This document shows, piece by piece, positions 1 to 15,898 of a DNA stretch of 16,528 nucleotides; positions within the stretch are counted from its first letter, which is position 1; each line of letters opens with the position of its first letter. The position numbers and the translations under genes were made by a program. The DNA is from an uncultured Desulfuromonadales bacterium. Lineage in GTDB: Bacteria; Desulfobacterota; Desulfuromonadia; Desulfuromonadales; Geopsychrobacteraceae. The stretch spans positions 1 to 16,528 of the forward strand of contig CAMYNC010000081.1 of assembly GCA_947259685.1 (NCBI GenBank), written 5' to 3'. The notes under the pieces were generated by a model. It did not search any database. It saw only the letters and a program-made list of their open reading frames with translations, and had not been told where the DNA came from.

Positions 1-1
1 G

Positions 2-696: not shown

Positions 697-722
697 GCAA
701 CCAGGGTTGCTAAACAGGAGGG
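697..722 (+). promoter_or_regulatory. Hairpin next to the ribosome binding site of the TIR-FGE gene
   Basis: GCAACC (697-702) and GGTTGC (705-710) form a perfect inverted repeat. It ends six bases before the strong Shine-Dalgarno AGGAGGG (716-722), which precedes the ATG at 726. The second TIR gene has a comparable stem in the same place. A role in translation control is inference. Confidence 0.35.
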
Positions 723-725
723 TAA

Positions 726-2108
726 ATGAGCGACATATTCATTAGCTATTCAAGAGAGGATAAAGAGAAAGTACAGCAGCTTGCCCAAGCTCTTGAAAAT
801 GAGGGTTGGTCGATCTGGTGGGATCCTCACATTCCGGCGGGAAAGAACTTTGATGATGTCATCGAGCAAGCCTTGGAAACCGCTAAGTCCGTTATCGTAT
901 TGTGGTCGGTCAAGTCAGTGGATTCGAGGTGGGTTCGAACCGAGGCTTCCGAAGCTCTGGACCGCAGTATTCTGGTCCCTGTTCTCATTGATGATGTGCG
1001 GGTTCCTTTGGCTTTCCGGCGTGTTCAGACTGCGGATTTAACCGCCTGGGATGGTTCCAGATCATTCCCGGCATTTCGCAAGTTGGTTGAAGATCTAGCA
1101 GGCATTATCGGCCCTCGGCCCGGACAAGTTGAGGGTGAAGCGAAATCTCAGGCAGAAGAGTTGGAAGTCAAGAAAGGGGAAAACGATACGAGGCGTCAGG
1201 TCACGGAAATGCTTCTGGAGGACAAGGCTGTAATAAGTCCCGTTCGGGACACCCCTGTGGGGAGCAAAAAGGGCCCTATGGTGGGTTTAGGGATTGTCGG
1301 CCTGGTGGCGTTATTATTCTTTTTCGGTTTGCAGTTTCGTGAGGGGAATATTGAGCAGGCTTCGAATTCGCAGGCCCACTCGACGAACACACCCGAACCG
1401 ACGCAGACAGTTACGCAGAACAATTCTGAAAAGCCTCTGATATCGCCGTCAAAGGACTCGGGCGAAAAGGTGATAAAGCCTGAAATGGTGGTTATCCCGG
1501 CGGGAACATTCAATATGGGTGGCAATGAGGTTAAGGTCCAAGAATTTGCAATAGGCAGGTATGAAGTCACCTTTGAGGATTATGAATATTTTACCAAAGC
1601 CAAAGGATGGGATACGCTTGATGATAATGGATGGGGAAAGGAGACGCGTCCTGTGATTCATGTCTCCTGGAAAGATGCCGCGGTCTACGCCAAGTGGCTC
1701 TCTGAAAAGACGGGCAAAAGTTACCGGTTGCCGACCGAGGAGGAATGGGAGTACGCGGCACGATGTCGGGGTGAGGATGAAAAGTGTGAGGGGATGCCTG
1801 CGACAGACAAACCGGGGGGGGATGCCTGGACCATTAAAAACAGTAAAAAGATGACACATCCTATAGGAGAGACAGAACCCAACGGGCTCAAGCTCTACGA
1901 CATGAGTGGCAACGTGTGGGAATGGGTTCAGAATCCCAGCAAAGATGATAATAGCGATCGGCGTATAATTCGTGGTGGCTCTTGGGCGGATGACGGTACC
2001 TGGGACTTAAGGTCTGAGGTCTCAGTACGCGATAGAGACCGCAGGTTTGGTTTTCGACTTGCCCAGGACTGCAATGAATCTTCACCCTGCACTCCTCCTG
2101 AAAACTGA
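726..2108 (+). CDS. Membrane-anchored TIR protein with FGE-sulfatase-like C-terminal domain
   Basis: The protein has 460 residues. The ATG is well supported by AGGAGGG just upstream. Residues 1-130 are a bacterial TIR domain: DIFISY is the first strand, the BB-loop region reads GWSIWWDPHIPAG, and the segment WSVKSVDSRWVRTEA places Glu73 where TIR NAD-cleaving enzymes keep their catalytic glutamate. A charged linker (131-182) leads to one membrane helix (about 185-203) and a Ser/Thr/Pro-rich stalk. Residues 252-447 form an FGE-sulfatase/C-type-lectin-like domain, with MVVIPAGTF, the block SYRLPTEEEWEYAAR, YDMSGNVWEW, RGGSW and GFRLA. The catalytic cysteines of true formylglycine-generating enzymes are absent after RGGSW, so the domain more likely binds a ligand than oxidises a sulfatase. 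Cys347 and Cys354 could form a disulfide. The inferred topology is TIR in the cytoplasm and sensor domain in the periplasm. A receptor whose TIR consumes NAD on activation is plausible but unproven. Confidence 0.9.
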   Translation: MSDIFISYSREDKEKVQQLAQALENEGWSIWWDPHIPAGKNFDDVIEQALETAKSVIVLWSVKSVDSRWVRTEASEALDRSILVPVLIDDVRVPLAFRRVQTADLTAWDGSRSFPAFRKLVEDLAGIIGPRPGQVEGEAKSQAEELEVKKGENDTRRQVTEMLLEDKAVISPVRDTPVGSKKGPMVGLGIVGLVALLFFFGLQFREGNIEQASNSQAHSTNTPEPTQTVTQNNSEKPLISPSKDSGEKVIKPEMVVIPAGTFNMGGNEVKVQEFAIGRYEVTFEDYEYFTKAKGWDTLDDNGWGKETRPVIHVSWKDAAVYAKWLSEKTGKSYRLPTEEEWEYAARCRGEDEKCEGMPATDKPGGDAWTIKNSKKMTHPIGETEPNGLKLYDMSGNVWEWVQNPSKDDNSDRRIIRGGSWADDGTWDLRSEVSVRDRDRRFGFRLAQDCNESSPCTPPEN

Positions 2109-2310
2109 AAAATTTTGATTTGGCAGTTTGGTAGGTTGAGTTGAGGCACAATGGCAGTGACCTGGATTGTTAGTAGATCAAGGCGAGCATGTTCTGAGTT
2201 GGGAGAAGATCTTTTTCTGGATTTTCGGATATACCGAATCCCAGTAGATCAATTAAAACTCAGGCTGCGTATTCAGACACACGGCTTTTTACCAGAAACA
2301 AAATAAGCCC

Positions 2311-2338
2311 TTGCATAGCATGGTATCCGTGCTAACAT
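2311..2338 (+). promoter_or_regulatory. Promoter and palindromic operator of the higBA-like pair
   Basis: TAGCATGGTATCCGTGCTA (2316-2334) is an imperfect palindrome with five perfect outer pairs and two further GC pairs inside. It ends two bases before the toxin ATG. TTGCAT (2311-2316) and TAACAT (2333-2338), 16 bases apart, can serve as -35 and -10, so the palindrome fills the promoter spacer. This is where HigA-type antitoxins bind to repress their own operon. If the -10 is right, the transcript would have little or no leader, which fits the lack of a ribosome binding site. Confidence 0.6.
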
Positions 2339-2639
2339 GATAGGCGTGATCCTCAATTTCAAAAACAAGGCAACCGAAGACATATTTAACGGCGTCTCTT
2401 CCAAGGATGCCCGCAAAGCATTGCCAAAAACGGTTTGGCGAGTTGCCACCCGCAAGCTGGATCAGCTCGATTCGATAAAAGTTTTGGATGAACTAAGGGT
2501 TCCCCCAGGCAATCGGCTGGAAGCCTTATCGGGAGACAGGAAGGGTCAACACAGCATCCGGATCAACAGTCAGTACCGCATTTGTTTTACCTGGCAAGAT
2601 GTCGGCCCGGCAGATGTGGAAGTAACCGATTATCACTAA
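2337..2639 (+). CDS. higB: HigB-type (RelE superfamily) toxin
   Basis: This is a small basic protein of 100 residues. NKATEDIFNG near the start, the long middle helix, LRVPPGNRLEAL, and the end block IRINSQYRICFTW then VEVTDYH are typical of HigB, a ribosome-dependent mRNA endonuclease of type II toxin-antitoxin systems. The usual family length is 92-100 residues. The start is uncertain. ATG at 2337 has no Shine-Dalgarno and overlaps the probable -10, while GTG at 2346 would give an N-terminus closer to relatives, which begin M-I-x-x-F. The antitoxin gene begins ten bases after the stop, so the order is toxin first, as in other higBA loci. No truncation is seen. Confidence 0.9.
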   Translation: MIGVILNFKNKATEDIFNGVSSKDARKALPKTVWRVATRKLDQLDSIKVLDELRVPPGNRLEALSGDRKGQHSIRINSQYRICFTWQDVGPADVEVTDYH

Positions 2640-2649
2640 GAGGTCTATT

Positions 2650-2967
2650 ATGGTACGCATACCAACCAACCGCCCGCCAACCCACCCGGGAGAAATGCTC
2701 CTTGAAGAGTTCCTGGCTCCAATGGAGATCACCCAGCGCGAGCTGGCCGACGCGATCCACGTCCCTTACCAGCGGGTTAACGAGCTGGTCAACCAAAAGC
2801 GTGGCGTCACCCCGAGTACCGCCCTGCGCTTAGCAAAGTTTTTCGGCATGACGGCAGACTTCTGGCTCAACCTACAAATGCGGTGGGATCTCTACAAAGC
2901 GAGAGAATCTGAAAAGACTGAAATCGAGACGATAGAGGATTATCAGCATCTGCGGAGAATGGCTTAA
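2650..2967 (+). CDS. higA: HigA-type antitoxin, XRE-family DNA-binding protein
   Basis: The protein has 105 residues and starts at an ATG preceded by AAGAGG (2638-2643), which overlaps the toxin stop codon, so translation is probably coupled. RPPTHPGEMLLEEFL at residues 8-22 is the characteristic HigA/VapI opening. Residues 28-50 form a helix-turn-helix (TQRELADAI, turn, YQRVNELVNQKRG), followed by the family block ALRLAKFFGMTADFWLNLQ. HigA binds and silences HigB and, with it, represses the operon; the palindrome at 2316-2334 is the likely site. The gene is complete and intact, so the pair looks functional. Confidence 0.93.
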   Translation: MVRIPTNRPPTHPGEMLLEEFLAPMEITQRELADAIHVPYQRVNELVNQKRGVTPSTALRLAKFFGMTADFWLNLQMRWDLYKARESEKTEIETIEDYQHLRRMA

Positions 2968-3056
2968 CCACAGAACATATCAATACGAATAAAAGTGCAG
3001 TAGCTCACCCTACTCGATTTCTGATATGTGGTGATTCATCAGAATGCATTCTACGG

Positions 3057-3536
3057 CTACTTGGGAATACCAATTTTACGACCAATGTTGTCGGGACGCT
3101 CTAAGTGTGATTGTTGTTGCGATAGGGTTTTAATCTTCGCCATTACTTCATCTGGAAAGGAAGCGGACTTACGTTTTTTCAGGTCTACGCATATGCTTAT
3201 TTGTTCAAGTGTGGAAGCAAGGTAGCCACTACTTCCCTTCACATGCATTTCAAAATAAAGATGAATGCGCTTGTGGTCATGATCTACCAGTTGCATCCGG
3301 ATCTCCACCTCCTGTCCAAGAGAGACCTCTTGATCGTAGGTGATATGGCTTTCCAATGCCATTGTAGATTTTCCAGTTAACTTTGCACTCACCTCACCTA
3401 AGCCAAGGGAAAGTAGCAATTCCTCGCAAGCAAGATCGAAGACCAAGACATAATATGCAACATTCATGTGGTTGTTGTAATCCAACCATTCGGGTTTGAT
3501 CTCTGTCGAATAAATAACAGTAGGGAGCTTATTCAT
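3057..3536 (-). CDS. Hotdog-fold acyl-CoA thioesterase (4HBT family)
   Basis: The protein has 159 residues, with GAGAGGG placed well upstream of its ATG. WLDYNNHMNVAYYV (17-30) is the active-site region of 4-hydroxybenzoyl-CoA-thioesterase-like enzymes, in which an Asp/Asn pair and the HMN turn begin the long central helix. LESHITYDQEVSLGQEVEI and the later strand IHLYFEMHV complete the hotdog fold. The family hydrolyses acyl-CoA thioesters in the cytoplasm. The sequence somewhat recalls betainyl-CoA thioesterases of carnitine breakdown, including the C-terminal VDLKKRKSASFPDEV block, but no carnitine genes are nearby, so no substrate is assigned. The gene stands alone, convergent with higA, and looks more like a housekeeping gene than its neighbours. 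Confidence 0.85.
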   Translation of the reverse strand: MNKLPTVIYSTEIKPEWLDYNNHMNVAYYVLVFDLACEELLLSLGLGEVSAKLTGKSTMALESHITYDQEVSLGQEVEIRMQLVDHDHKRIHLYFEMHVKGSSGYLASTLEQISICVDLKKRKSASFPDEVMAKIKTLSQQQSHLERPDNIGRKIGIPK

Positions 3537-4383
3537 ATTTACCCTCTCATGTTGAGCTGGAATACCCTAATTTACCTAAATGTAACAGATGCCTCGTAAC
3601 CTGAAACACCCAAAATCTGTCTCAGGGGTGCTGACATGTGAAAAGATAGCCACTATATAGGCACCTATTTCCTGCAATAAAACCTCACCGTGTATTGGGT
3701 TCGATTGATAAATACGGAATCGAATTCAGGGCTTGTTTACTGGTACCCTCAGGTTGTCGCATGGAGATTAATTGGTCAAAACAGAGACATAGGGACGTGT
3801 CGTTTAGATTTCCGCCATCGAAGGCATTTGTCTTACCTCCTTTGGATCTGCTCTTCCCTAGCCACTTGAAACCGCCGAGACTCCCTTACTTTTCTGCCCA
3901 AGCTGCCCTTGTTCCACCTTGGCAGCGATCCGATGTTGGACCTGCTCCAGAAAACACGGCTGGTAACAGAAATATCGGGTCGTCACGACGGGGAGGGGAG
4001 CTGATGAGGCTTTGCGGGGAGCATAAAAACAACGATGACGGATATCGCCAAGAGGTTTTCCCGGATGATTTTACTTTTCCGGTTTTTCGAGCGATTTATC
4101 ATTTTGGGAATTTCTTCCGCTCAATAAACGACTTTTTAGGGTCGCCCGCTCTACTTTGCCTCGTTGGTGCTTCCGTCACCGTCTGGTTTCAATCTATCGC
4201 AGGTCGGGGGGATGTCAAGCGGCAGGTTTCAACTATAATTCAGATAGTTGCAACTGCATGAAATCACTTGGCCCGGCTTTAGGAATATTTATTTGGGCCG
4301 GGGGCAGATCAGGCTGAAGGCCTAAAATCTTTGTAAATCGCCGGGCGGACAGAGGGGGAAGACTTCCCCCCTTAACAGGCCGT
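3537..4383. other. Gene-poor stretch with no convincing coding region
   Basis: This stretch of about 850 bases lies between the starts of the thioesterase and the terminator of the OmpA-like gene. An open frame from a TTG at 3695 to 4261 on the plus strand (188 codons) has no ribosome binding site, no recognisable domain and an unlikely composition, so I do not call it. On the minus strand AAAGGAGG precedes an ATG near 3816, but the frame closes within a few codons. A perfect small hairpin, GGGGGAA (4354-4360) with TTCCCCC (4364-4370), and a weaker CCCGGC/GCCGGG pair (4272-4277/4297-4302) are the only visible structures. It may hold decayed sequence or an undescribed RNA. Confidence 0.5.
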
Positions 4384-4430
4384 AAAAAAGCCCGGCCCTC
4401 ATCGCAACATTCGTGGAGAGAGGGCCGGGC
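4384..4430 (-). terminator. Rho-independent terminator of the OmpA-like lipoprotein gene
   Basis: An 11-base-pair GC-rich stem, GCCCGGCCCTC (4390-4400) with GAGGGCCGGGC (4420-4430), is followed on the minus strand by six T residues (4389-4384). It lies about 110 bases after the stop of the gene at 4540-5190. The 19-base loop is rather long, but the stem is perfect. Confidence 0.85.
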
Positions 4431-4539
4431 CGTCATGATTAACTTTTGAGCGATTCGCTATTTTCCTCGAAAATCCAAGCAGAAACGAAGAAAAATCAAT
4501 TCAAAAATCTCAGTTCTCAACAACACCTGTGGACCAGAA

Positions 4540-5190
4540 TTAAGCCCTTGGGGTAATGGTGACCTGAACCCGGCGATTAAGCTGCCGACCGTTCTCGGTG
4601 CTGTTGTCTGCAACCGGCTGAGCTTCGCCGAAACCAACGGTTTCAACCCGGCGAGGATCAACATTCTTCTTGATCAATGCGTTTCTAACCGCACTGGAAC
4701 GACGCTCTGAAAGCTGCTGATTAAGGGCTTCACTTCCCGTGCTGTCGGTATGTCCAGCCACCATGATAGAGGTCTGGGGGTACTGGTTGAGGACCTGGCC
4801 CACCCTAAATATTTCGTCATAAGCACCGGGTTTCAAAGAAGCCGATCCTACATCAAAAAGAACATCAGATTTGAAGGTTAAGGCCAAGGTATCCGCATTT
4901 CGCTGGATACTGGCGGCTTCAGAAGCCGCCAACTGCTGCCGCAAGGCCTGTTCCTGGTTGTCCATGTAGCGACCAACCCCGCCACCGGCCAGACCACCTA
5001 AAAGAGCACCGATACCGGCGCCTATAAGGGTTCCTTCGGTGTCGCCGCCGATAGCCTGGCCGAGACCTGCGCCGGCAGCGGCCCCTACGCCTGTTCCGAT
5101 CCAAGCCCCTTGCTGGGTCTTGTTCATGGGCTGGGCGCAGCCCACCAGGCTAACCGCCAAGATAAGCAAACTAATACACGTCCTTTTCAT
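4540..5190 (-). CDS. Outer-membrane lipoprotein with glycine zipper and OmpA domain (YiaD-like)
   Basis: The protein has 216 residues, with AAGGGAG before the ATG. Residues 1-17 are a lipoprotein signal peptide ending in the lipobox LVGC; Cys18 would carry the lipid. Residues 31-73 are a glycine-zipper segment (GTGVGAAAGAGLG, then GAGIGALLGGLAGGGVG) that could insert into the membrane. A short helical linker follows, then an OmpA C-terminal domain (about 105-214) with FDVGSASLKP, AGHTDSTGSEALNQQLSERR and NRRVQVTI, the peptidoglycan-binding signature. The protein therefore ties the outer membrane to the cell wall. It is monocistronic with its own terminator at 4384-4430. No link to the conjugation genes is visible; it looks like a chromosomal gene, which hints that the accessory genes sit in a chromosome. 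Confidence 0.93.
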   Translation of the reverse strand: MKRTCISLLILAVSLVGCAQPMNKTQQGAWIGTGVGAAAGAGLGQAIGGDTEGTLIGAGIGALLGGLAGGGVGRYMDNQEQALRQQLAASEAASIQRNADTLALTFKSDVLFDVGSASLKPGAYDEIFRVGQVLNQYPQTSIMVAGHTDSTGSEALNQQLSERRSSAVRNALIKKNVDPRRVETVGFGEAQPVADNSTENGRQLNRRVQVTITPRA

Positions 5191-5760
5191 TTTTTATCTC
5201 CCTTAAAAACTTAAAAGTGATTGTGTGACTCTTGAGAACAAAAAGAAGGGCGGAATTTATCACAAAAGATCGAAAAAGGTCGAGACTTTAACAATCTGGC
5301 GGACAGTCGCGGGAGTCGCCCCGCCCGGCGAGTTACCTTTCTTGACGGCCAAGCAAAGGTAACCGAAAGAAGGCCGCCCCACCCAGGGTGAACCATACGG
5401 CTAATCACAGCGCTTACTTCTGGTCCTTTTGACCCCTGTCTGTGTTGCGATTCTTTGACGTAAGCTTTGGCTAAGCCTTCATCTTCGCCGCCTTGCCAGA
5501 AGCCAAAATTTCTCAGAATCAATTCGCCGGGTTAACCGAATGGGTCACCAGCCTCCTGCAGGGTTCCCTCTCTCCGGTAATTTCCAGCCAGAAAGGAGAC
5601 GAAACCCCGCTACGCTAAGAGATCCGTCTCGGGGTTGCCAGCTGAAAATCCCCTGCGTTCGGCGGCACCCAAAGGGGGATTGACATAAAAATTCGGTAAA
5701 AACGTCTCACTCCCCTGCCATACGCTCATCATCCGCTAGAATTATAAAGAACTTATCTCT
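5191..5760. other. 570-base intergenic stretch with structured, repeat-like sequence
   Basis: This stretch separates the divergent OmpA-like and second TIR genes. The part next to 5190 should hold the promoter and leader of the OmpA-like gene. An open frame on the minus strand (5211-5522) has no ribosome binding site or domain and is rich in Arg, Ser and Gly. Its sequence is of the kind often seen when dispersed non-coding repeats are translated, so I do not call it. A folded segment at 5581-5648 is listed separately. TTGACA (5680-5685) and an AT-rich stretch (5736-5755) may belong to the TIR promoter, but no properly spaced -10 is evident. Confidence 0.5.
5581..5648 (+). other. Candidate structured RNA or palindromic repeat upstream of the second TIR gene
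   Basis: An outer stem TTTCCAGC (5581-5588) with GCTGAAAA (5641-5648, one mismatch) encloses a perfect stem AACCCCG (5603-5609) with CGGGGTT (5630-5636). A second perfect stem, GAGACG (5596-5601) with CGTCTC (5625-5630), would compete for base 5630. I do not recognise it as a known riboswitch class. It lies about 145 bases before the TIR start. Confidence 0.35.
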
Positions 5761-5787
5761 TTGCTGGCTCCCCCAGCAACGGAGGGG
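5761..5787 (+). promoter_or_regulatory. Hairpin next to the ribosome binding site of the second TIR gene
   Basis: TTGCTGG (5761-5767) and CCAGCAA (5773-5779) form a perfect seven-pair stem with a five-base loop. One base later comes the strong Shine-Dalgarno GGAGGGG (5781-5787), six bases before the ATG at 5794. This supports that ATG over the TTG at 5761, which lies in the stem itself. Confidence 0.4.
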
Positions 5788-5793
5788 AAATCT

Positions 5794-6921
5794 ATGGCGG
5801 ACATCTTCATCAGCTACAAACGAGAAGAGCAAGACCAAGCGAGAAAATTGGCCGACGCTCTTGAAGCCCAGGGTTGGAGTGTTTGGTGGGACCCCAATCT
5901 TATAGCAGGGGAACGTTTTGACGACGTTATCGAAACGGCGCTTAAAGAGGTGAAATGTGTCATCGTCATGTGGTCCAGGCTTTCGGTAGAATCAGAGTAT
6001 GTAAAAGACGAGGCCACCTATGCTCTTAGGCGCAAAAAACTTGCTCCAGTTACAATTGAGGATGTGGAACTGCCCTTCAGGTTTGAGGGCATCCACACCC
6101 CGCAGTTAATTGGCTGGAACGGCTCCGAAGAGACCCCTGAGTTTCAGAGGCTTATCAAAGATATCGCTTCAATTATCGGCGCTGCTCCTGGGAAAGTGCA
6201 ATCTGAAGGCAAAGCCAAGCCCGAACCGGCAAAAGAGCCTCCAAAGGCCCAGGTTGAGCCAGAAAAAAGGGAACCGCCTCCTTGGGGGAAACCTCCCTTT
6301 TGGACCAAAGCACGTCTATTAATGGGCGGACTTACCGTAGCTGTTATCGTTTTTTTGCTAATAATATCTCCATTTACTGATTATTTTAAGGAAATATCAA
6401 ATAGTAAATCAGTAAAATCAGAGCCACATATTCAACCACCAACGAACTTTATTGCAGTTCCTCTGGAAGCATACAATGAATTAGTCATTGAAAATAATAA
6501 ACTTGAAAGTAAATTAGAAGAACTTGAAATAAAATTGGCTGCAGTTGAGAAAAATAACACTTCAAATAACGAACAATTATCTAATCTTTTAAAATCTGAG
6601 AAAAGAAAACTTGAGAATGAAAAAAACATTACTCTTGAAGAAATTAAACATGGGAAAACAGTTAGTCTATCGTGGGATGCGAGTCCTTATGAAAACGTAA
6701 TGGGCTATAAAATCTATTATAAGACCGATAGTATTACCCATCCTTTTGATGGAACAGGTGCGAATGAAGGTCCTTCTCCAATTGTTGTAGGAAATATCTT
6801 AAGTACAACACTGACTGGTTTAAATGGTAATTTGGACTACTATTTTGCTATTACCGCTTATGATGAGAATGGAAATGAAAGTGGTTTCGGACCCATTATT
6901 ATGAGTCCTAAGATTAACTAG
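5794..6921 (+). CDS. Membrane-anchored TIR protein with coiled coil and fibronectin III domain
   Basis: The protein has 375 residues from the ATG at 5794, chosen for GGAGGGG at the right distance and because it matches the start of the first TIR protein. Residues 1-130 are a TIR domain (DIFISYKRE, GWSVWWDPNLIAG, WSRLSVESEYVKDEA) with Glu73 at the expected NAD-cleaving position. A Pro/Glu/Lys-rich linker (142-168) leads to one membrane helix (about 175-194). Residues 224-285 are a probable coiled coil. Residues 287-372 look like a fibronectin III fold (TVSLSWDASP, GYKIYYKT, YYFAITAYDENGNESG). The inferred topology is cytoplasmic TIR and periplasmic coiled coil with adhesion or sensing domain. 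It shares 72 of 140 residues with the first TIR protein, without gaps, but nothing beyond the membrane segment. Base composition drops sharply there: 31 of 60 bases are G/C at 5881-5940 against 13 of 60 at 6481-6540, suggesting a joined C-terminal module. Confidence 0.88.
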   Translation: MADIFISYKREEQDQARKLADALEAQGWSVWWDPNLIAGERFDDVIETALKEVKCVIVMWSRLSVESEYVKDEATYALRRKKLAPVTIEDVELPFRFEGIHTPQLIGWNGSEETPEFQRLIKDIASIIGAAPGKVQSEGKAKPEPAKEPPKAQVEPEKREPPPWGKPPFWTKARLLMGGLTVAVIVFLLIISPFTDYFKEISNSKSVKSEPHIQPPTNFIAVPLEAYNELVIENNKLESKLEELEIKLAAVEKNNTSNNEQLSNLLKSEKRKLENEKNITLEEIKHGKTVSLSWDASPYENVMGYKIYYKTDSITHPFDGTGANEGPSPIVVGNILSTTLTGLNGNLDYYFAITAYDENGNESGFGPIIMSPKIN

Positions 6922-7216
6922 ATAAAGTATCGAGGTTGAGGCGATTTGATGTAAAAATATTTTTGAGCCCTGTAGATAATTCAATAAATTTTCTTTTGAA
7001 ATATTTTTTTGTTCATCTTTTTCAAAAATGGTGTTGTATGCGTTTCTGATAAGTGGGCGTAACGTTTGACCATCTGGGCCCAATGACCACATAGCTGTAA
7101 AGAATGGCCAACATTTGAGAAGAACTCCTGAATGAAGCCGAAGTGTACTGCTTTGAGGACTTTTCGATAAACTCTCGGCTACCTATTACATTATTATACG
7201 TTTTCGTTCCATTGGG

Positions 7217-7744
7217 CTACAACCCCCCCATATAAGCGCATCGATGGGCATGAGAACAGCTCCGACACTTCGCGCCACCCACCCGAGAAGGTAAGGCCGC
7301 TCGGTTCTGGATCTGTCCATATCGTTCCAACCTCCGCTCAACAGCAGACCGATTAAGCAGATCCACCCGCTGCGCAGAATCCCCCGGGAAAACCACAAAC
7401 CCAAAGGGCGCGACCTCATTCCCTTGCATTTCCAAAATATAGCCATACAAAGAAAGCTGAATCCGATCCGTTCCGTATACTCTCCCATTCGCCCGGTTCT
7501 TCCGCTCAACCGGCACCAGGCGACCGTCCGGCAACTGATAAAGGCGATCCAAACGGCCCTTCAAGGGATAATCCCCAGTCGTTTCCAGATCCCACTCAAC
7601 ACCGATGAGCTGCGCGTCCTTCAGCTCTTCCGGTAGCCAGGCTTCAGGCTCTTTCGCAATCCTCGGAGTCCGCCTGAAAAACCGCCGAAAATAGAGAAAG
7701 AGGGCAATAAACCCTAGAAGTATCAACAAATAGTCACTATCCAT
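7217..7744 (-). CDS. Cas4-like PD-(D/E)XK nuclease, C-terminal motifs, with membrane anchor
   Basis: The protein has 175 residues. Residues 4-20 are a hydrophobic membrane helix. GRLDRLY (Asp66) and VPVERKN (Glu80, Lys82) form the D...ExK metal-binding and catalytic core, Gln96 to Tyr100 form the QxxxY motif, and Cys160, Cys163 and Cys169 match the C-terminal iron-sulfur cysteines of Cas4/RecB-type exonucleases. The Asp-Glu spacing of 14 and the Cys spacing of 3 and 6 equal those I recall for archaeal Cas4. The N-terminal part of Cas4, with the first cysteine and the motif I histidine, is missing here but present in the gene just upstream (7737-8153), which this one overlaps by eight bases in ATGGATAG. 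No cas genes or CRISPR array are near, so a role in conjugal DNA processing or recombination is more likely than spacer acquisition. Confidence 0.82.
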   Translation of the reverse strand: MDSDYLLILLGFIALFLYFRRFFRRTPRIAKEPEAWLPEELKDAQLIGVEWDLETTGDYPLKGRLDRLYQLPDGRLVPVERKNRANGRVYGTDRIQLSLYGYILEMQGNEVAPFGFVVFPGDSAQRVDLLNRSAVERRLERYGQIQNRAALPSRVGGAKCRSCSHAHRCAYMGGL

Positions 7745-8153
7745 GAGGTCCCCCGATCACACGGATAATCCGCGCCAGAATCCACCTCAAAACCGCCGAG
7801 CTCGCAGGAACAACCGAAGCCAAAGATACCAGGGCAGGGGAGAGGGCATAATAAACCTTCACAAACGCCTGACCGCTGAAAGTCGGCATCAAGTGCCGAT
7901 CACGCCACTGACGAAGAAACTCGGTCTCCGGCGCATCTGAACCAAAAACCGCAGTCGCCACAAAACAGCGCCGGTCCTTCGCCAGCCGGGAACGTCCTTG
8001 ACGTTCAAAGCGCGTATGATCTTGACTACCCTCAGTCCGCGCCCTTTGCACATGCGGGGCAGGGCGGTCGCCATACTCCTTATCAAAAACCGCTTTTTGC
8101 TCACAATACTCGGCGGCGACAACTTCACTGACAGTCCAAGGCTTCTTTTGCAT
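7737..8153 (-). CDS. Cas4 N-terminal-like segment fused to a CFI-box domain and membrane segment
   Basis: The protein has 138 residues. Residues 6-50 resemble the start of Cas4 nucleases: TVSEVVAAEYCEQK gives Cys17, the position of the first iron-sulfur cysteine, and EGSQDHTRFERQG gives His46, the motif I histidine, 29 residues later. Residues 63-108 are a CFI-box: CFVATAVFGSDAPE, LRQWRDRHL, GQAFVKVYYALSP. This widespread module of unknown function usually sits at the C-terminus of varied proteins. Residues 108-134 are hydrophobic and may span the membrane. The stop lies inside the start of the catalytic gene 7217-7744. The two reading frames overlap only across a short window that contains a run of five G on the coding strand (7750-7754), so a frameshift could fuse them into one protein of about 310 residues. 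The start at 8153 lacks a strong Shine-Dalgarno. Confidence 0.75.
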   Translation of the reverse strand: MQKKPWTVSEVVAAEYCEQKAVFDKEYGDRPAPHVQRARTEGSQDHTRFERQGRSRLAKDRRCFVATAVFGSDAPETEFLRQWRDRHLMPTFSGQAFVKVYYALSPALVSLASVVPASSAVLRWILARIIRVIGGPHG

Positions 8154-8173
8154 GTTGAAATTCTTTTCAGTGG

Positions 8174-8455
8174 TTAGAGCTTTTTATGTCTGCAGGGTCT
8201 ATTTAGAAACGTTTGAACCAACTTTTCAATATCTTCATCTGAGTAAGAATGGCTCAAAATACTCTCTCCAATGACCTCTGACCCAGAAGCTCTTAAAACG
8301 GCAACCAGCTGCTCAGCCTGTTCGGGAGTATAGCCTAGACTATTTTTCAGAGCCCTTTTCAGAAAAAATTCTGCATGCTTTGATTCTTCGCTATTGCTGA
8401 TGACATCCGCAACATATTCTTTTTCCAGCCACAATTTAGGTTCCTTCTGCTCCAT
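8174..8455 (-). CDS. Small hypothetical protein in the conjugation cluster
   Basis: The protein has 93 residues and is acidic and mostly helical, with no signal peptide or membrane segment. GGAGGT, which lies at the stop of the preceding gene, stands at a good distance from this ATG, so the two are translated as a unit. I recognise no domain. The central part (LGYTPEQAEQLVAVLRASGSE) could be a short helical hairpin, and the C-terminus is basic (RPCRHKKL). Tight packing between the LPD7 gene and the nuclease pair suggests a cytoplasmic accessory role in DNA transfer, which is guilt by association only. Confidence 0.75.
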   Translation of the reverse strand: MEQKEPKLWLEKEYVADVISNSEESKHAEFFLKRALKNSLGYTPEQAEQLVAVLRASGSEVIGESILSHSYSDEDIEKLVQTFLNRPCRHKKL

Positions 8456-8462
8456 TTTTGTA

Positions 8463-9242
8463 TTACCTCCCCAAAACCCGTTCTTCCTTCATAGCCCGAA
8501 CCCGCCGAGGCTCACGAACCTTAATCTGCGCACCAGGGTGCCCCTGCTCAACCTTAGACGCAACCCGATCCTGCACCTGCGCCAGAAACCGCTGCTGATC
8601 TGTTTTATTCGGAAACCGCTTTGCGATCTTCTCAGCCAGCTTCAAAGTCGCCGCTTCATGCTTCATTTCCGGGTGATCCTTCACCAGGTCTTCCGGCTTT
8701 TTCTTCTGCACGGCCTCCGCCTTCTCCGTCGCAGCCTTACGGGGGCTCTGACCAATTACCTTACTTGCCTTTTCAGCTGCTAAGGTTTGGTCACCTTGTT
8801 CAGCTGATTGGGTTTGCTGTAGCCGTTTTTCCAATAGTGCGAGGTCCGATTCTTTCGGCTGATAACCACGAACGTCAATCCCGCGAGCTGAAGCATCTAG
8901 CCAAACATTGCGGCGAAAATCTTCACTTCCACGTGCTTTGATTTCGGTCCAGCCTCGGGCTTGGGCAATATCAACCAAAGCGCCCGCAACCTTCATCCCG
9001 TCTGATTTGGCTTTGAGCTTGTTCCCTTTGTCCTCAAAAGCGAGCTGATCAGGATTGCGTTCGTAGTAAAAGCGGTTGCCGACCTGCAGGTAGGTCTTCT
9101 GGATCTGTTCTGGAACCAGGGCTTTCTTCTTATCCAGCTCAGTGAAAATTGTTTTCCGTTCAATGGAATTTCCGTCCTGCTCCTGAAGGGGCTTTTTGTG
9201 GCTGGGCTTGGTGTACCGGGAATTGCGGTCCTTATCTGCCAT
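8463..9242 (-). CDS. LPD7-domain protein of the conjugative transfer cluster
   Basis: The protein has 259 residues from the ATG at 9242, which has AAGGAGA upstream. A start at 9290 would fall inside a terminator stem and is rejected. Residues 45-140 match the LPD7 domain (large polyvalent-protein-associated domain 7): YLQVGNRFYYER, LAFEDKGNKLKAKSD, VAGALVDIAQARGWTEIKARG, RRNVWLDASARGIDVRGY. LPD7 is usually found in relaxases (MobA/TraI types), TraC-like primases and other large plasmid or phage proteins, often after the nicking domain. Here it stands alone with Lys/Glu-rich tails and no relaxase motifs. A role in recognising or passing on transferred DNA is likely but not shown. Downstream genes follow at short spacing. 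Confidence 0.85.
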   Translation of the reverse strand: MADKDRNSRYTKPSHKKPLQEQDGNSIERKTIFTELDKKKALVPEQIQKTYLQVGNRFYYERNPDQLAFEDKGNKLKAKSDGMKVAGALVDIAQARGWTEIKARGSEDFRRNVWLDASARGIDVRGYQPKESDLALLEKRLQQTQSAEQGDQTLAAEKASKVIGQSPRKAATEKAEAVQKKKPEDLVKDHPEMKHEAATLKLAEKIAKRFPNKTDQQRFLAQVQDRVASKVEQGHPGAQIKVREPRRVRAMKEERVLGR

Positions 9243-9272
9243 GAATGTTCTCCTTGCAGGTGGAGTTGAATC

Positions 9273-9313
9273 AAAAAAGCGGGCCGCCATCCTGGAGGGG
9301 ATAGGGGCGGCCC
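9273..9313 (-). terminator. Terminator or attenuator between the cysteine-rich gene and the LPD7 gene
   Basis: A perfect eight-pair GC stem, GGGCCGCC with GGCGGCCC (9306-9313 and 9281-9288), is followed on the minus strand by GC and six T (9278-9273). It lies 23 bases after the stop at 9336 and only 30 bases before the ATG at 9242. There is no room for a separate promoter after it, so it probably lowers rather than abolishes transcription of the LPD7 to Cas4-like genes. Confidence 0.8.
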
Positions 9314-9335
9314 TATTGCAAACGAATTTCTTTAT

Positions 9336-9830
9336 TTACCGCCGACGGTTCCAATAATAGGTTTCACCGGCCTGCTCACCGTCAATGAAAACGTCGATAT
9401 AGCGGGTGGTCCCTGTGCAGCCCGGCGGATAAGGGTCTTCTTCCTTGCGATTCACACACTGAGTTCCTTTGACATAATGGTCGGACCAACTTTCATACCT
9501 TAGACACTCCGTACTCGTCTGTTCTCCCGCGTCAAACCACTCAGCGCACCGCTTACCAGCAGGAACATAAGCAGCATAACTATAATCGTAAGACATGGTG
9601 CTGCTATCATCAGACTTGACCGCGCAGGAGAAAAAGTCAGGCAGTGGTGGCTTGAAATCTTTTATCCGGTTAACCATCGCCTTATAGGCGCTGTGGCATT
9701 CAGAAGGACCAAATCCGGCAGGGAGACAGATCCAAATCGCACATTCATCGTCCGAGCCCGCATGAACCTGCGGAGCTAAAAAAACAACCAAAAGAACACC
9801 TAAAATGAACTTGCGGAAATTCCTGTTCAT
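9336..9830 (-). CDS. Secreted cysteine-rich protein associated with conjugation
   Basis: The protein has 164 residues from the ATG at 9830, which is preceded by GGAGAGGGAG. The frame stays open further upstream into the coupling-protein gene, but that extension has no start signal and would bury the signal peptide. Residues 1-24 are a Sec signal peptide (basic start, hydrophobic core, VHA then G). The mature part has eight cysteines, suggesting four disulfides and a periplasmic location. The first block, ECAIWICLPAGFGPSEC then LPDFFSC, resembles small secreted proteins found beside virD4-like genes in conjugative elements, but I cannot name the family with certainty. It follows the coupling-protein gene by 28 bases and ends just before a terminator-like hairpin, so it closes the main transfer operon. 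Confidence 0.82.
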   Translation of the reverse strand: MNRNFRKFILGVLLVVFLAPQVHAGSDDECAIWICLPAGFGPSECHSAYKAMVNRIKDFKPPLPDFFSCAVKSDDSSTMSYDYSYAAYVPAGKRCAEWFDAGEQTSTECLRYESWSDHYVKGTQCVNRKEEDPYPPGCTGTTRYIDVFIDGEQAGETYYWNRRR

Positions 9831-9858
9831 CTTTTTTCTCCCTCTCCTTAAATGAAAA

Positions 9859-11739
9859 TTAGGTAACCGCAACCGGCTCCAACCCTTCAAAAAACTGATC
9901 GACAATCTGCACCATTCTCTGCTCAGAAATTTCCCCCGTAGGGATTTCAACCGACGAAAAATCACAGGAAAAATCTTCGAGATCAAGCTGATCAATATCG
10001 GCAATATCCTGTGCCGTAACCGCCCGCTCGACAGAAACAGTTTCCATTTCGGGGGTATTCAGAGCAAACTCTGGAAACTCCCGTTCTTCAATCTGTAAAA
10101 GATCCACTTCCGGGGCAGCCAGCAGCCGCTGCTTAAAGGTCTTCTCTTTGTAATAGCGAATTTTCCGGGAAAGAATCGGTGGGCAATTCTCAACCAGGAT
10201 AATCTGCTTCTCCTGCCCCAAGGCCCGCAGTTCCTGCGGCAGAAGCAGAGCCCGGCGCTGATCAGACGTGCTGACGCTTTTCCCTTCCCGCCCGGCCATG
10301 TTTTTCGATCTGGTTTTACTTTTGACGGTGGTATCGCCCAATGTTTCGGAAATATCCTTGGCGTCCTTGTTGTCCTTGGGAGCAAAAACGACCTGGAGAG
10401 CGTGGTTCTGCATGAATGTTTCAGCGGCATCATGCCCGTAAATATCTCGGATCTGCGCCGGAGATTGGATAATCGGCAAGAGCCGCAGCCCATACCCCGC
10501 AATAAACGCCAGGCCCTTCATCAACACGTTGACCTTGCCCAGGGCAGGAAACTCATCCATCAATAAAAGAACCTGATACTTTAGGGCCGGGTTGCGTTCT
10601 GGCAGTTCTCGGGTATTCAGCTCAATCGCCTGCTGAAAGAAAAGATTCAGCAACCGAGGCAGCCGCTCAAGAGCACCCGGGGCCACACCGATATAGATGC
10701 TCATGCGCTGTTTACGCAGATCACGCAGATCAAAATCGTTACCGCTGGTGGCCGCATCGACCACCGGGTTGAACCAGAGTTCCAAAGGAGCGGTAAAGGT
10801 TTTACGGATCGAAGAGCGTGTGCTATCGCTGGTGTTGAGATAGTCGTTCAAGGCGGCGACACACTCCCCAGAAAGGGGCCTGCTGCTGCCTTGCCGGTCC
10901 ATAATCACGCTTGCAAAACGTTTATCATCCCCGCTTGTCGCTTGGCGCAACACCTCCCCAAGAGTCACAGGGAGCCCTTCGGTTTCCATGAGATAGAGAA
11001 CAATGCCCAGGAACAACGACCGGGCGGACGGCTGCCAGATCGGGGCTTCGCGGTCATTATCCGGGTAAATCATGTGACCGATGGCCTGAATGTCCGTCAC
11101 CCGAAAATGGGGATCATCGGAGATATAGTAGAGGGGGTTCCAGCGGTGAGTCCGGTAGTCGCGGGCTTCCGGATTAAACAAAAAGCATTTTTGCCCATGC
11201 TTCGCCCGAAACCCTGCGGTGATATCCCAATTCTCCTGCTTCGTGTCAAACACGATGACACTATCCGGCCAGTTCAGCAGGTTTGGGATGACCATCCCCA
11301 CACCTTTGCCGGCGCGGGTCGGAGCAGCCATCAAAACATGCTGCTGACCACCAAAGACCAGGTAGCGGCCCTTGTTTTTCCCAACAATAATCCCTTTTTC
11401 GGCAGTCAACTTCGCCGCGCGAATTTCCGACTCTCTTGCAAACCGTGCATCGCCGTGTAGCGAGCGGCGGTTAGGGCGGAATAAAAAGAGGCCAGGCAGC
11501 AAAGCACAAGCCGTCGCACCAATAGCAGAAAACCCAAGGAAACGACGGGTGTCTGGATCATGGCCGTAGTGTTCCCAATAGCTGTAAGCAGTCCAGAGGT
11601 CTGCATCTTGGAAATTTTGACCGGCAAAATACATAAAAAAACCGCCCGTCAAATACACCCACAAGACCACTGTTCCCAGCACGACGAGCAGGGTCAGGGC
11701 GAGTTTGGCCCAAAGATTTTCCGAAAAATTTAGGAACAT
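9859..11739 (-). CDS. virD4: Type IV coupling protein, VirD4/TraG family
   Basis: The protein has 626 residues. Two membrane helices (about 12-38 and 68-87) flank a short periplasmic loop. A cytoplasmic motor domain follows, with Walker A APTRAGKG (139-146) and Walker B LLLMDEFPALG (391-401). Other family blocks are GGQQHVLMAAP, VIVFDTKQENWD and the conserved glutamine near IIQSPAQI. Coupling proteins are hexameric inner-membrane ATPases that bring the relaxase-DNA complex to the secretion channel and pump the DNA. Length is usual for the family. The last 70 residues are acidic, as in related proteins where this tail helps choose substrates. It is separated from virB11 by 170 bases of hairpin-rich DNA, while the cysteine-rich gene follows closely. 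Confidence 0.96.
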   Translation of the reverse strand: MFLNFSENLWAKLALTLLVVLGTVVLWVYLTGGFFMYFAGQNFQDADLWTAYSYWEHYGHDPDTRRFLGFSAIGATACALLPGLFLFRPNRRSLHGDARFARESEIRAAKLTAEKGIIVGKNKGRYLVFGGQQHVLMAAPTRAGKGVGMVIPNLLNWPDSVIVFDTKQENWDITAGFRAKHGQKCFLFNPEARDYRTHRWNPLYYISDDPHFRVTDIQAIGHMIYPDNDREAPIWQPSARSLFLGIVLYLMETEGLPVTLGEVLRQATSGDDKRFASVIMDRQGSSRPLSGECVAALNDYLNTSDSTRSSIRKTFTAPLELWFNPVVDAATSGNDFDLRDLRKQRMSIYIGVAPGALERLPRLLNLFFQQAIELNTRELPERNPALKYQVLLLMDEFPALGKVNVLMKGLAFIAGYGLRLLPIIQSPAQIRDIYGHDAAETFMQNHALQVVFAPKDNKDAKDISETLGDTTVKSKTRSKNMAGREGKSVSTSDQRRALLLPQELRALGQEKQIILVENCPPILSRKIRYYKEKTFKQRLLAAPEVDLLQIEEREFPEFALNTPEMETVSVERAVTAQDIADIDQLDLEDFSCDFSSVEIPTGEISEQRMVQIVDQFFEGLEPVAVT

Positions 11740-11909
11740 GCTCCCCCTCTTTAACTTAGTACCTTGTAAGCCATAAACCAGCGCGTCTAGCTTGTTCTTT
11801 GACGCGCCAACGACGTTGTGACTTCAGTTGCATAGCGATGCTATGCGCCGTCAGTCACGCCTTGTTGGTACGCCAAACCACCTCGCAATCTTGCGACACT
11901 TTATGATTT
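11740..11909. repeat. Hairpin-rich intergenic island between virB11 and virD4
   Basis: This is the largest gap inside the transfer operon. It contains a nested, symmetric imperfect palindrome: CCAAC (11807-11811) with GTTGG (11864-11868), GTGAC (11818-11822) with GTCAC (11854-11858), and at the tip GCATAGC (11830-11836) with GCTATGC (11840-11846). It is flanked by GCGCGTC (11781-11787) with GACGCGC (11801-11807), and by TCGCAA (11883-11888) with TTGCGA (11891-11896). No T-tract follows, so it is not a simple terminator. A dispersed REP-like or attC-like repeat, an RNA processing site or an origin of transfer are possible. Confidence 0.65.
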
Positions 11910-12938
11910 TCAAGGCACTAGAAGATTCCGTTTAAAAACCGGATCGTAATAGACTTCCGTGACGACCCGGCGGCGGTTGATATTCTTGATCTGGACAATG
12001 ATATCCACGCACATAAAAATAAGCTGCTTGATATCCTCGCGGCTCATTGTCGAGCCACTGGAGGATTCCTTGAGAAATAGCACCAGCTGTTCAATCGCCA
12101 GCTTGGCATTATTCGCGTGCATCGAGGTGATCGAACCAGGATGGCCGCTATTGACGTTCCGCAGGTAATAAAAAGCCTCATCCCCACGGATCAGCTCAGC
12201 TAGAAACACCCGGTCTGGCTTCATCCGCAGCGCACTTTCAAGTAAATGCTGCTGCGTGATGTTGGCAGCCCCTTGACCACCCGCGCTATAGAACAGAGAA
12301 ATGCTATTTGGGTGCGTCTGATGAAGTTTCAATTCATCAACGTTCTCAATACTCAATAGCCGCTCATCTTCAGGCACCAGGCCGAGTAGAGAACGCATGA
12401 GCGTAGTTTTCCCGGCTCCAGTGGAGCCGGAAACGATAATATTTTGTTTCTCCTTAACCGCGAGATCCAGGAACTCTTTAAAGCGGCGGGCATTCTTCAA
12501 TTCCAGCAACTTCTCTTCGTGGGGCATGAGGTCTGAAGAGCAGTCGCGGACCTCTTCAAATGACCCGGCCTTTTCATAATCATCCAAAGTCATGATCATA
12601 TCTGCAGGCCTGCGGATCGTCAGGCTAACCGTCCCGGTTCGAACCGCAGGCGGAATGACCACCTGAACCCGCTCCCCACCCGGCAATGTCGCAGAAACAA
12701 TCGGTTGCTGCTGATCAAGCTTTTGCTGAGAGTAAGTCGCAATCAGTTTTGCCAGCTGCAGACAGCGGTTAAAATCCATCTCTGGTGCATCATGAGTCAC
12801 CCACCCGCCGCGCCCTTCGGTCAGAACCTTACCTGGCGAATTAATACAGATTTCAGTGATTTCCTGGCTATCCAGGAAGGGGCGTAACTGCTCCAGATAC
12901 TCAAGCAGTGGCCCGGCACTATCAGGAGCAGTTACCAC
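11910..12938 (-). CDS. virB11: VirB11-type secretion ATPase
   Basis: The protein has 342 residues from the GTG at 12938, which follows GAGGG and begins just after the virB10 stop. An upstream in-frame GTG at 12989 (359 residues) would overlap virB10 by 50 bases and has no Shine-Dalgarno, so I prefer the shorter form. The N-terminal domain contains EITEICINSPGKV and RVQVVIPPAV. The motor domain has Walker A GSTGAGKTT (171-179), the Asp box (LLSIENVDEL), the Walker B region RVFLAELIRGDEA and the His box GHPGSITSMHAN. An isoleucine stands between AEL and RGDEA, where many relatives read ELRG. VirB11 is a hexameric ATPase on the inner face of the membrane that switches the system between pilus building and substrate transport with VirB4 and VirD4. 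Confidence 0.95.
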   Translation of the reverse strand: MVTAPDSAGPLLEYLEQLRPFLDSQEITEICINSPGKVLTEGRGGWVTHDAPEMDFNRCLQLAKLIATYSQQKLDQQQPIVSATLPGGERVQVVIPPAVRTGTVSLTIRRPADMIMTLDDYEKAGSFEEVRDCSSDLMPHEEKLLELKNARRFKEFLDLAVKEKQNIIVSGSTGAGKTTLMRSLLGLVPEDERLLSIENVDELKLHQTHPNSISLFYSAGGQGAANITQQHLLESALRMKPDRVFLAELIRGDEAFYYLRNVNSGHPGSITSMHANNAKLAIEQLVLFLKESSSGSTMSREDIKQLIFMCVDIIVQIKNINRRRVVTEVYYDPVFKRNLLVP

Positions 12939-12939
12939 C

Positions 12940-14118
12940 TTAATATCCCTCGGCAGCGAGGCTATAAACGCCCCGGAAGTCCAGGTCACGCGCTACAAAA
13001 ATACTGATATGTTCACCCTGATTTTTATAAAGCGTCGGCGGAATATCAATCGAGTTTTCCAGAGCAATTGAGCCCGCCTCTTGAGCAGTGCCGGTAGTAC
13101 TGCCGATTTGAACCCCGTTATTGTCAGCGGCCTTAGCAACGATGTAGTTACCGATATCGTCAATCACACTTAAGAGGATTGCACCACCAAAACGCTCCCA
13201 GAAATGCTTATCAATGTAGCCACTATGACCAGCTCGGCCCAAAGCATCGGTTCCCGGAGAATTCAGAGAAATAATTACACCGGAAGGGGTTTCGATTCGG
13301 TTCCAAAGGGCAAAAATCCGCGCCTTGCCTCTCTCCAGTCCCCCCTGATACTGGCCGACAGCTCTTGAGCCGCGCTCGATCAGTAGGACGTTGCCGTTTG
13401 TGCTGTAAATATCCCGCGTAACTCGGCAACTGGTCATCCCCGGAAGATCACTACTAATTGCGGTTTCCAGGGCGCAATCAATGAAATGCCCTTGTGTTAC
13501 AACTAGATTCCTATCCGGCAGCACACTGGCCGAAACACCTTCAATTTCTGTTGGTGTCAGCTTCGCGGACAGGGGACTTGCGGCGGGTTTATTTTCGTTT
13601 TCCGAGCCAAAGAAGCTTCTTTGAGCATTGCCCTGCGGAGCAGCCTGCGAGGGTAATTGTTCAGCGCTACGATCATTATCCAAATCAACAAATAAGCCCG
13701 ATTGGCGCTTACGCTGATCTGGTGTGATGGTTTTCTTTTTATCCTCTACCACCCTGAAGCGGGGCTGTGCTGGTGGTATGTCGTTGGTGCGGATCACCTT
13801 CGGGACATAGGGTTTCTGCTTCTCAACAATGACCGGCACAACCGGTTTCTTCGGTTGTGCTTCGGGTAATTCAGGTAAGTTTGAGCGAACGACTTTCTTT
13901 TTTTCTTCCTCAACAACAACACCCGCGCCGGTTTTTTCTTCTGTCTTTGAAAAAACACCATTGACCGCCAGGATCGCCAGCAGGGCAACTACACCTATTA
14001 CAATCATGCCGAGCTTGGCCGAGGTGCCACCGCCGCGCTTTTTCGGATTGACTGAGGGCAAACCGCGCTCGCCATCAACTTCGTGATTTTCCCCATTCTG
14101 ATTCTGAATATCACTCAT
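12940..14118 (-). CDS. virB10: VirB10-type channel protein spanning both membranes
   Basis: The protein has 392 residues. A short cytoplasmic tail (1-33) is followed by one membrane helix (35-56), then a long proline- and lysine-rich periplasmic stretch (77-140, with PKKPVVPVIVEKQKPYVP). Residues 195-385 form the VirB10/TrbI beta-barrel domain, with ASVLPDRNLVVTQGHFIDC, RGSRAVGQYQGG, RIFALWNRIETPSGV, GRAGHSGYIDKHFWERFGG and the antenna region before IPPTLYKNQGEHISI. Cys215 and Cys231 are placed like the conserved disulfide pair. The protein links the inner-membrane motor to the outer-membrane pore with VirB7 and VirB9. Its ATG overlaps the virB9 stop by four bases (ATGA), so the two are coupled. 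Confidence 0.96.
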   Translation of the reverse strand: MSDIQNQNGENHEVDGERGLPSVNPKKRGGGTSAKLGMIVIGVVALLAILAVNGVFSKTEEKTGAGVVVEEEKKKVVRSNLPELPEAQPKKPVVPVIVEKQKPYVPKVIRTNDIPPAQPRFRVVEDKKKTITPDQRKRQSGLFVDLDNDRSAEQLPSQAAPQGNAQRSFFGSENENKPAASPLSAKLTPTEIEGVSASVLPDRNLVVTQGHFIDCALETAISSDLPGMTSCRVTRDIYSTNGNVLLIERGSRAVGQYQGGLERGKARIFALWNRIETPSGVIISLNSPGTDALGRAGHSGYIDKHFWERFGGAILLSVIDDIGNYIVAKAADNNGVQIGSTTGTAQEAGSIALENSIDIPPTLYKNQGEHISIFVARDLDFRGVYSLAAEGY

Positions 14119-14933
14119 TGTTCTGCGCTCCCTTTAATGACCCGTTTGACTCCCGGTACAGTTGTGCCGCTTGGGTTCGAAATTCCATTCGGGTCATAGG
14201 CACGGTTATATACAGCAGCGACGAGTTGGCCTTTCCGTAAAACGAGCTTTTGGGCGATCTTATGAACCGCGATCACATCGCCTTCAACGTGAGTATTGAC
14301 CAGGCTTTCCGTTCCGTCCGGATTTTCAACGTAAATGGCAGGCATTTCTTTGTTGTTGGCAAAGGTCAAATAAGTAAAGCGCCGGTCATCATAGGCCTTG
14401 TTCGGGGCGAGGACTTCAGACCCTTTAACCCAATAATTCCAGTTTTCCGGGAGGCTTGTTGTTTGCTGCGCAAGCTTTTCTTGTAGGGCTTTCGATTGAG
14501 CAACCTTTTCAGCGTGGGCGGCTGCCTCATCGGGATAGCGAAACTTCAGCTGAAAGACCATATCATTCGGTTCTGGGTGCGCACCGCCCAAGGACTTGTG
14601 AGCATTTAACTCAAAATTGTAAACACGCTTGTCGGTCAGCACGGTCATGTTGGTTCCGGCTTTTTTCCCTTTGGGCTTCATAAAAAGATGATTGCCAAGC
14701 TTGCCGAGTTCCCAAGCTTTTACGTCACCCATGCCAATTTTTAAGATGTTTTCTCCAGGGGCAAATTCAACATGCGTTGAAAACCCGTAGTGGGCGGTAA
14801 TCCCCACCACTTCAGCCGGGTTGTAATCAACAAACTTTATCCGTTCGTCATGCGGGCCACCCTTGGGGATCTCCAAAGCCGAGGCTGAGAAGGGCAGGGC
14901 GATTAAACAAAAAAGCAGCGCAAAATATTTCAT
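14115..14933 (-). CDS. virB9: VirB9-type outer-membrane core protein
   Basis: The protein has 272 residues from the ATG at 14933, which has a GGGGGGA Shine-Dalgarno. A start 45 bases further upstream would hide the signal peptide and overlap virB8. Residues 1-19 are a Sec signal peptide ending in SASA. The N-terminal domain has DERIKFVDYNPAEVVGI, FSTHVEFAPGE and HLFMKPKGKKAGTNMTVLTDKR. The C-terminal domain has YWVKGSEVLAPNKAYDDRRFTYLTF, MPAIYVENPDG and the final LVAAVYNRAYDPNG. All of these are typical of VirB9/CagX. With VirB7 and VirB10 it builds the outer-membrane core ring. The virB8 stop lies one base before its ATG. Confidence 0.96.
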   Translation of the reverse strand: MKYFALLFCLIALPFSASALEIPKGGPHDERIKFVDYNPAEVVGITAHYGFSTHVEFAPGENILKIGMGDVKAWELGKLGNHLFMKPKGKKAGTNMTVLTDKRVYNFELNAHKSLGGAHPEPNDMVFQLKFRYPDEAAAHAEKVAQSKALQEKLAQQTTSLPENWNYWVKGSEVLAPNKAYDDRRFTYLTFANNKEMPAIYVENPDGTESLVNTHVEGDVIAVHKIAQKLVLRKGQLVAAVYNRAYDPNGISNPSGTTVPGVKRVIKGSAEQ

Positions 14934-14934
14934 A

Positions 14935-15883: not shown

Positions 15884-15898
15884 TGTTCAGCCTTTCCT

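Follow-up and report, generated by a model that had tools for sequence, protein, structure and literature searches.

Does the end of a conjugation operon in an uncultured Desulfuromonadales bacterium encode a Cas4-family nuclease that is divided over two proteins? The question is raised by two overlapping genes, here called A and B, on contig CAMYNC010000081.1 of assembly GCA_947259685.1, of which positions 1 to 16,528 were analysed; this whole stretch of 16,528 nucleotides is referred to as the window. The original prediction was that the two genes together carry the residue set of a Cas4 nuclease with an iron-sulfur cluster, and that the split enzyme may act on DNA passing through the type IV channel. 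The genes are located as follows.

7737..8153, minus strand: gene A, 138 amino acids; a Cas4 N-terminal segment (Cys17, Gly42-x3-His46), then a CFI-box (residues 63-130)
7217..7744, minus strand: gene B, 175 amino acids; a membrane segment, a PD-(D/E)XK core and Cys160/163/169, without the Cas4 N-terminus
7737..7744, minus strand: overlap of 8 bases between the end of A and the start of B, in different frames

Our analysis suggests that A and B are very probably two subunits of one Cas4-family PD-(D/E)XK 'iron-staple' nuclease. By sequence comparison we show that A holds the predicted N-terminal cysteine and motif-I histidine and B the predicted motifs II and III and C-terminal cysteine triad, that both sets of residues are conserved, and that A and B travel together whether their genes overlap, diverge or lie far apart. 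The two-gene split was confirmed with the residues proposed for it (Cys17 and His46 on A; Asp66, Glu80, Lys82 and Cys160/163/169 on B), and the two-subunit reading is well supported by co-occurrence, joint conservation, blind prediction of the partner, profile matches and a joined structural model.

Among the 120 matches listed of 229 found in a protein search with A, Cys17 and Gly42 are present in 120/120 and His46 in 119/120; the first 60 residues contain four columns that are at least 98% conserved, and these three residues account for three of them. The sample for B consisted of 3 matches from one search and 120 listed of 149 from another. Among these listed matches, Asp66, Glu80 and Lys82 are each found in 123/123, each cysteine of the triad in 120/123 and the whole triad in 119/123, with P0058, P0076, P0080 and P0108 lacking at least one of the cysteines. 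The QxxxY motif that had been read in B is present in the window (Q96-L-S-L-Y100), but among the same matches Gln96 is retained in 107/123 and the tyrosine in only 3/123. The spacings in the window are 29 from Cys to His, 14 from Asp to Glu, and 3 and 6 between the last cysteines. As had been claimed, they are Cas4-like: the residues given in PMC4176176 for SSO0001 (Cys32-His62, Asp99-Glu113, Cys188/191/197) are spaced by 30, 14, 3 and 6, and those for Pcal_0546 (Cys64-His94, Asp123-Glu136, Cys200/203/209) by 30, 13, 3 and 6. The motif-I histidine upstream of the core is found only jointly, on A, and the four-cysteine set of the iron staple is likewise found jointly (Cys17 of A and the triad of B).

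The profile matches divide in the same place. B matches Pfam families PDDEXK_1 (1.2e-6) and Cas_Cas4 (9.4e-6), entering the former only at position 99 of 247 and the latter only at 54 of 160, and it is matched by 13 Cas4/Cas1-type PADLOC profiles, every one of which is entered at position 48 or later. Its score against TIGR00372 is below the equivalog cut-off (34.7 vs 65 bits), PHROGs gave weak exonuclease matches for B only, and a PDB sequence search with B (A4) returned 11 matches, of which the best was AdnA (2.4e-4). A has no match in Pfam and none among the PADLOC profiles. Its CFI-box matches NCBIfam NF041770 (E 1.6e-21; 75.9 bits vs a cut-off of 40; profile 1-69 of 69; residues 63-130) and is placed, as originally described, between motif I and the catalytic core.

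Could the two genes instead be a single Cas4 gene that was broken by a frameshift or a sequencing error, or whose parts are joined by programmed frameshifting? The 8-base overlap in different frames speaks for this explanation. We compiled a table of 36 pairs, several of them near-identical (30 distinct B cores). L028, whose contig starts at B, was left out of it, as were L020 and L025, which duplicate L018. The two-gene form is found in 36/36 pairs, and in none is there a Cas4-like single polypeptide of ~171-221 amino acids with both ends. A and B are codirectional neighbours in 28/36, divergent neighbours in 4/36 (L004, L100-L102) and apart on the replicon in 4/36 (L002, L106, L099, L107), and another gene intervenes between them in L010, L012 and L104. 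That A is divergent from B, or ~7 kb or 41 kb away from it, in relatives argues against a frameshift or a broken gene, an explanation to which we give almost no credence. No B protein in the table has a full Cas4 N-terminus and lacks a partner: for 36/36 B rows, an A is present on the replicon or contig that carries the B.

The intervening gene of the Xanthomonas plasmids encodes a protein of ~200 amino acids (L012 3446-4045, L104 1830-2435), and the L012 copy is without a Pfam family; similar gaps between A and B are seen in two Rhodanobacter records and one Dyella record. In the Thioalkalivibrio plasmid pTK9001 a DUF4326 gene (L010 3408-3686) separates the two.

That A and B are partners is further supported by their distribution on plasmids. 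A tblastn search with A of the window matched 64 plasmid records, 60 of them listed; comparing coordinates with the B listings and annotated regions, we found B within ~1 kb downstream of A and on the same strand in 60/60 listed records, and B is truncated beside IS21 in CP062808. A model of the N-terminal part of A (the first ~60 residues, CFI-box left out) located A in L004, L100, L101 and L102, where it diverges from B, and in L096 and L098, where it is directly upstream of B; L004, L096, L098, L100 and L102 were outside this model. A search with a CFI-containing model (A3) found no A in W01 and W02, and a class of partnerless B proteins (IncC, PA83, several Pseudomonas and Vibrio plasmids) was at one time considered. 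This class has been withdrawn, as the N-terminal model A9, searched against whole records, recovered A in 9/9 records with best E values of 6e-20 to 0.0046; A9 contained rows from W09-W11 and none from the other six records, and its match in W01 consists of two weak pieces of one open reading frame. A lies ~6.9 kb upstream of B in IncC plasmid pSD_174, with an IS91-type insertion between, 6.7 kb upstream in A449 plasmid 4 (a weak match, in two pieces of one open reading frame), ~41 kb from B in Vibrio gangliei, and ~7.5 kb from B in divergent orientation in pQBR55.

The IncC A protein has 95 amino acids, retains the cysteine and Gly-x3-His, and ends in a hydrophobic tail; in the records listed its gene overlaps a repA-type gene and is annotated as hypothetical or not at all. 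Searches by tblastn matched it in 1093 plasmid records, with 80% or more of its length covered in 1091 of them, and B-like proteins in 1119, and the counts of IncC A and B are near-equal by genus totals (Klebsiella 341/347, Salmonella 219/213, Escherichia 193/191).

Similar pairing is observed in genomes. In a class-level set of 369 genomes, A9 matched four loci below 1e-6, in G001 (two), G319 and G354, which are the same three genomes that have B matches below 1e-20 in that set; the G319 sequence is part of A9, G001 and G354 are not, and G001 is close to L001. An order-level set of 399 genomes added two new loci, G700 and G760, where an overlapping or adjacent B with its cysteine-rich end is present (E 4.5e-33 and 2.4e-35). 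Weaker A9 matches (4.5e-4 and above; G312, G227, G238, G366, G469) had no B in the available flanking DNA and look like chance. A first scan of genome contigs with B alone gave no match, nor did a scan of viral contigs. A separate A was found within ~3 kb of full-length Cas4 or large helicase-nuclease genes at 0/21 loci (L040-L060), and no single open reading frame matched both the A and B models in the loci examined. No A-B fusion was seen in protein searches limited to at most 1.75x the query length, which a fusion of ~310 amino acids would escape.

A joined A+B AlphaFold2 model has the overall Cas4 fold and aligns to Cas4 structures over 186 residues, compared with B's own 175, so that a placement of the A N-terminus where the N-terminus of Cas4 would be is supported by modelling. 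Two large alignments set B rows on the A part and were excluded. The models bear on another explanation, in which B is a nuclease by itself. A would then look like a Cas4 N-terminus but control B as its regulator, inhibitor or membrane anchor, without completing the active site. In keeping with this, B is predicted to fold well by itself, A is only ~75-100 amino acids long in lineages without the CFI-box, and Cys-to-Ala mutants of Pcal_0546 and SSO1391 are reported in PMC4176176 to be active without the cluster. On the other hand, exactly the cysteine and histidine that are missing from B are kept in A, the joined model covers the Cas4 N-terminus, and in L038 the cysteine of A was lost together with the triad of B while Gly-x3-His was retained. 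We regard a self-sufficient B as improbable.

The pair might also have given up DNA cleavage and now be a membrane module with a structural or DNA-binding role; a viral nucleocapsid protein derived from Cas4 is known (PMC4625639). The invariance of Asp66, Glu80 and Lys82 among the listed matches (123/123) argues against such a loss of activity, as does the table of pairs, in which the Asp and Lys of B are present in 36/36 rows and the Glu80 column holds an acidic residue (Glu or Asp) in 36/36; a non-cutting pair seems very unlikely.

How could a nuclease of two subunits work? We argue that it would be active only where A and B meet, and that an iron-sulfur cluster held by one cysteine of A and three of B could bridge both chains, stapling the subunits together. 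The helix of B and the CFI-box or membrane tail of A would place the complex at the inner membrane in most lineages. By analogy with Cas4 and its relatives, the substrate is probably single-stranded DNA ends; the pair might trim or cut those of the mobile element, and it would most likely serve the recombination, repair or establishment of that element, and not CRISPR (clustered regularly interspaced short palindromic repeats) adaptation. With modest confidence we lean towards a heterodimeric nuclease whose common cluster would lock the two chains to each other and activate the enzyme where its halves meet, usually at the membrane. On this view, the split would have a single origin and would since have been dispersed among conjugative elements of Proteobacteria, IncC plasmids with non-neighbouring halves among them.

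The table shows how well the motif residues are kept. The cysteine of A is in its column in 34/36 rows, being absent from L038, and in L103 (Azospirillum) the column holds a gap with a cysteine one residue off. Gly-x3-His is in its column in 35/36, and in L002 an insertion shifts the motif, which is still readable. The triad of B is found in 30/36; L038 and L103 have none, the IncC-type L002 and L106 carry CxCGG-x-FH, L013 is truncated, and the reading frame of L039 is interrupted. A rule that an A without cysteine goes with a B without triad was tried and given up: it is clear in L038 only, ambiguous in L103, and IncC shows the opposite.

We would like to point out that several observations weigh against the two-subunit nuclease, or at least against a simple form of it. 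One relative of A (P0155) has Arg in place of His46. Comparison of A9 with Cas4 by hhalign gave a probability of only 9.7%, and a PDB sequence search with A9 found no chain up to E 10. B alone folds confidently (predicted local distance difference test, pLDDT, 89.5; predicted template modelling score, pTM, 0.78), so the modelling fails to show that B needs A, and the joined model was built on unpaired alignment rows. The apparent loss of the cysteine in Azospirillum L103 is ambiguous, and in IncC-type B (L002, L106) CxCGG-x-FH replaces CxxC-x5-C although A keeps its cysteine; perhaps another ligand set or metal is used there. Some neighbours of the pair (M48 and S49 peptidases, spermidine synthase) are not DNA-handling proteins. 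Finally, the membrane parts are optional: a hydrophobic N-terminal segment (at least 2.0) is present in 29/36 B rows and the CFI-box in 23/36 A rows. The IncC-type B with this changed ending is located at L106 3929-4444 and L002 4884-5414.

A membrane helix had been assigned to both proteins of the window. The segment of B is clear (17-residue hydropathy 2.04), but the tail of A is borderline (1.71). In the seven rows where B has no segment (L004, L038, L100-L103, L107), A has neither CFI-box nor hydrophobic tail, and each A with a CFI-box accompanies a segment-bearing B. Across the 36 rows, then, membrane attachment of A goes with that of B, and the family can do without it.

Is the conjugation channel the place where the proposed split nuclease acts, to trim or destroy DNA on its way in or out? 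In the window, as originally noted, the pair closes a conjugation operon: the genes from VirD4 to the window end are on one strand, and the minus-strand order before A and B is TrbL/VirB6, VirB8, CagX/VirB9, TrbI/VirB10, a VirB11-type ATPase, VirD4, a protein without Pfam match, the LPD7 protein and the 93-residue protein. The nearest of these are listed below.

8174..8455, minus strand: protein of 93 amino acids directly upstream of A; no Pfam family above cut-off
8463..9290, minus strand: LPD7-domain protein (Pfam PF18821, E 7.9e-20)
9859..11739, minus strand: VirD4-type coupling ATPase (Pfam T4SS-DNA_transf, E 2.4e-118)

The pair also follows traG/traH on Burkholderiales-type plasmids, and most versions have membrane segments, which would suit a site at the channel. 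Against this, 7/36 B rows lack the segment and 13/36 A rows the CFI-box, and the IncC, Pseudomonas and Rhodanobacter versions lie among replication or recombination genes. Other neighbours include RecJ, abutting A in L006, CobT-like or AAA genes with DUF3150 (L009, L096, L097), topA (L004, L100-L102), ssb (L007, L008, L011) and rdgC (L002). Taken together, the neighbours favour DNA processing of the mobile element, as judged from gene order. The proposed action at the type IV channel is not supported by any of our tests, given that soluble versions exist and several lineages have DNA-handling neighbours in place of channel genes; since other pairs lie beside peptidases or conjugation genes, we rate a channel role as unlikely, with an appreciable chance nevertheless.

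The proposed two-subunit nuclease resembles Cas4 (PF01930 / TIGR00372; SSO0001, Pcal_0546, type I-C Cas4 8d3l) in its core motifs, spacing and joined-model fold and in having one N-terminal and three C-terminal cysteines, here over A and B jointly. It differs in consisting of two genes, in having a CFI-box or membrane parts between motif I and the core, and in the lack of cas genes. Consistent with the original observation, none but B matched a cas family in a Pfam scan of 17 open reading frames of the window, and no CRISPR-like repeat array was found in it. The iron-staple nucleases AddB, AdnA, Dna2 and Exo5 are single chains, the first three with helicase domains, whereas here the two ends are on two proteins. 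Like CFI-box-CTERM proteins (NF041770), A ends in a full-length match above cut-off, but the CFI-box is optional among its relatives; a full-text literature search returned no paper on the CFI-box.

That conjugative plasmids of Burkholderiales carry a large clade of Cas4 (MGE-Cas4) was noted in 2017 (PMC5704561), and the B proteins found on Burkholderiales-type plasmids very probably belong to this clade. The MGE-Cas4 section of that paper is silent on any missing N-terminus, partner gene or CFI-box and on the relatives in IncC, Pseudomonas, Vibrio and Xanthomonas, and the paper's passages on split, fragment and membrane hold nothing on a two-gene form. Full-text literature searches, covering neither subscription papers nor preprints, found no description of a split Cas4. 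The suggestion that the split form is undescribed is therefore not contradicted, but part of the family had already been seen.

If true, a catalytic histidine and one cluster ligand on a separate protein would be an unusual way of controlling a DNA-cutting enzyme, and an inter-subunit iron-sulfur staple would tie enzyme assembly to iron and oxygen. As the counts given above indicate, the pair is widespread on plasmids. Our reading offers a named, testable function for two backbone genes that are uncharacterised although their plasmids are well studied, as well as a candidate use for the CFI-box domain.

Other features of the window deserve mention. By megablast, its right part has a plasmid match of 51 bases only. 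The LPD7 protein (8463-9290, minus strand) is free-standing, with no relaxase domain in the same open reading frame, and is close to virD4. On the plus strand, two genes that lie 3.6 kb apart encode TIR-domain proteins. The product of 726-2108, possibly a defence or signalling protein, joins the TIR domain (TIR_2 8.3e-27) to an FGE-sulfatase domain (5.1e-38); that of 5761-6921 combines TIR (TIR_2 5.2e-23) with fibronectin type III (fn3 9.9e-6). Also on the plus strand, at 2337-2967, a HigB-like toxin gene is followed by a helix-turn-helix antitoxin-type gene.
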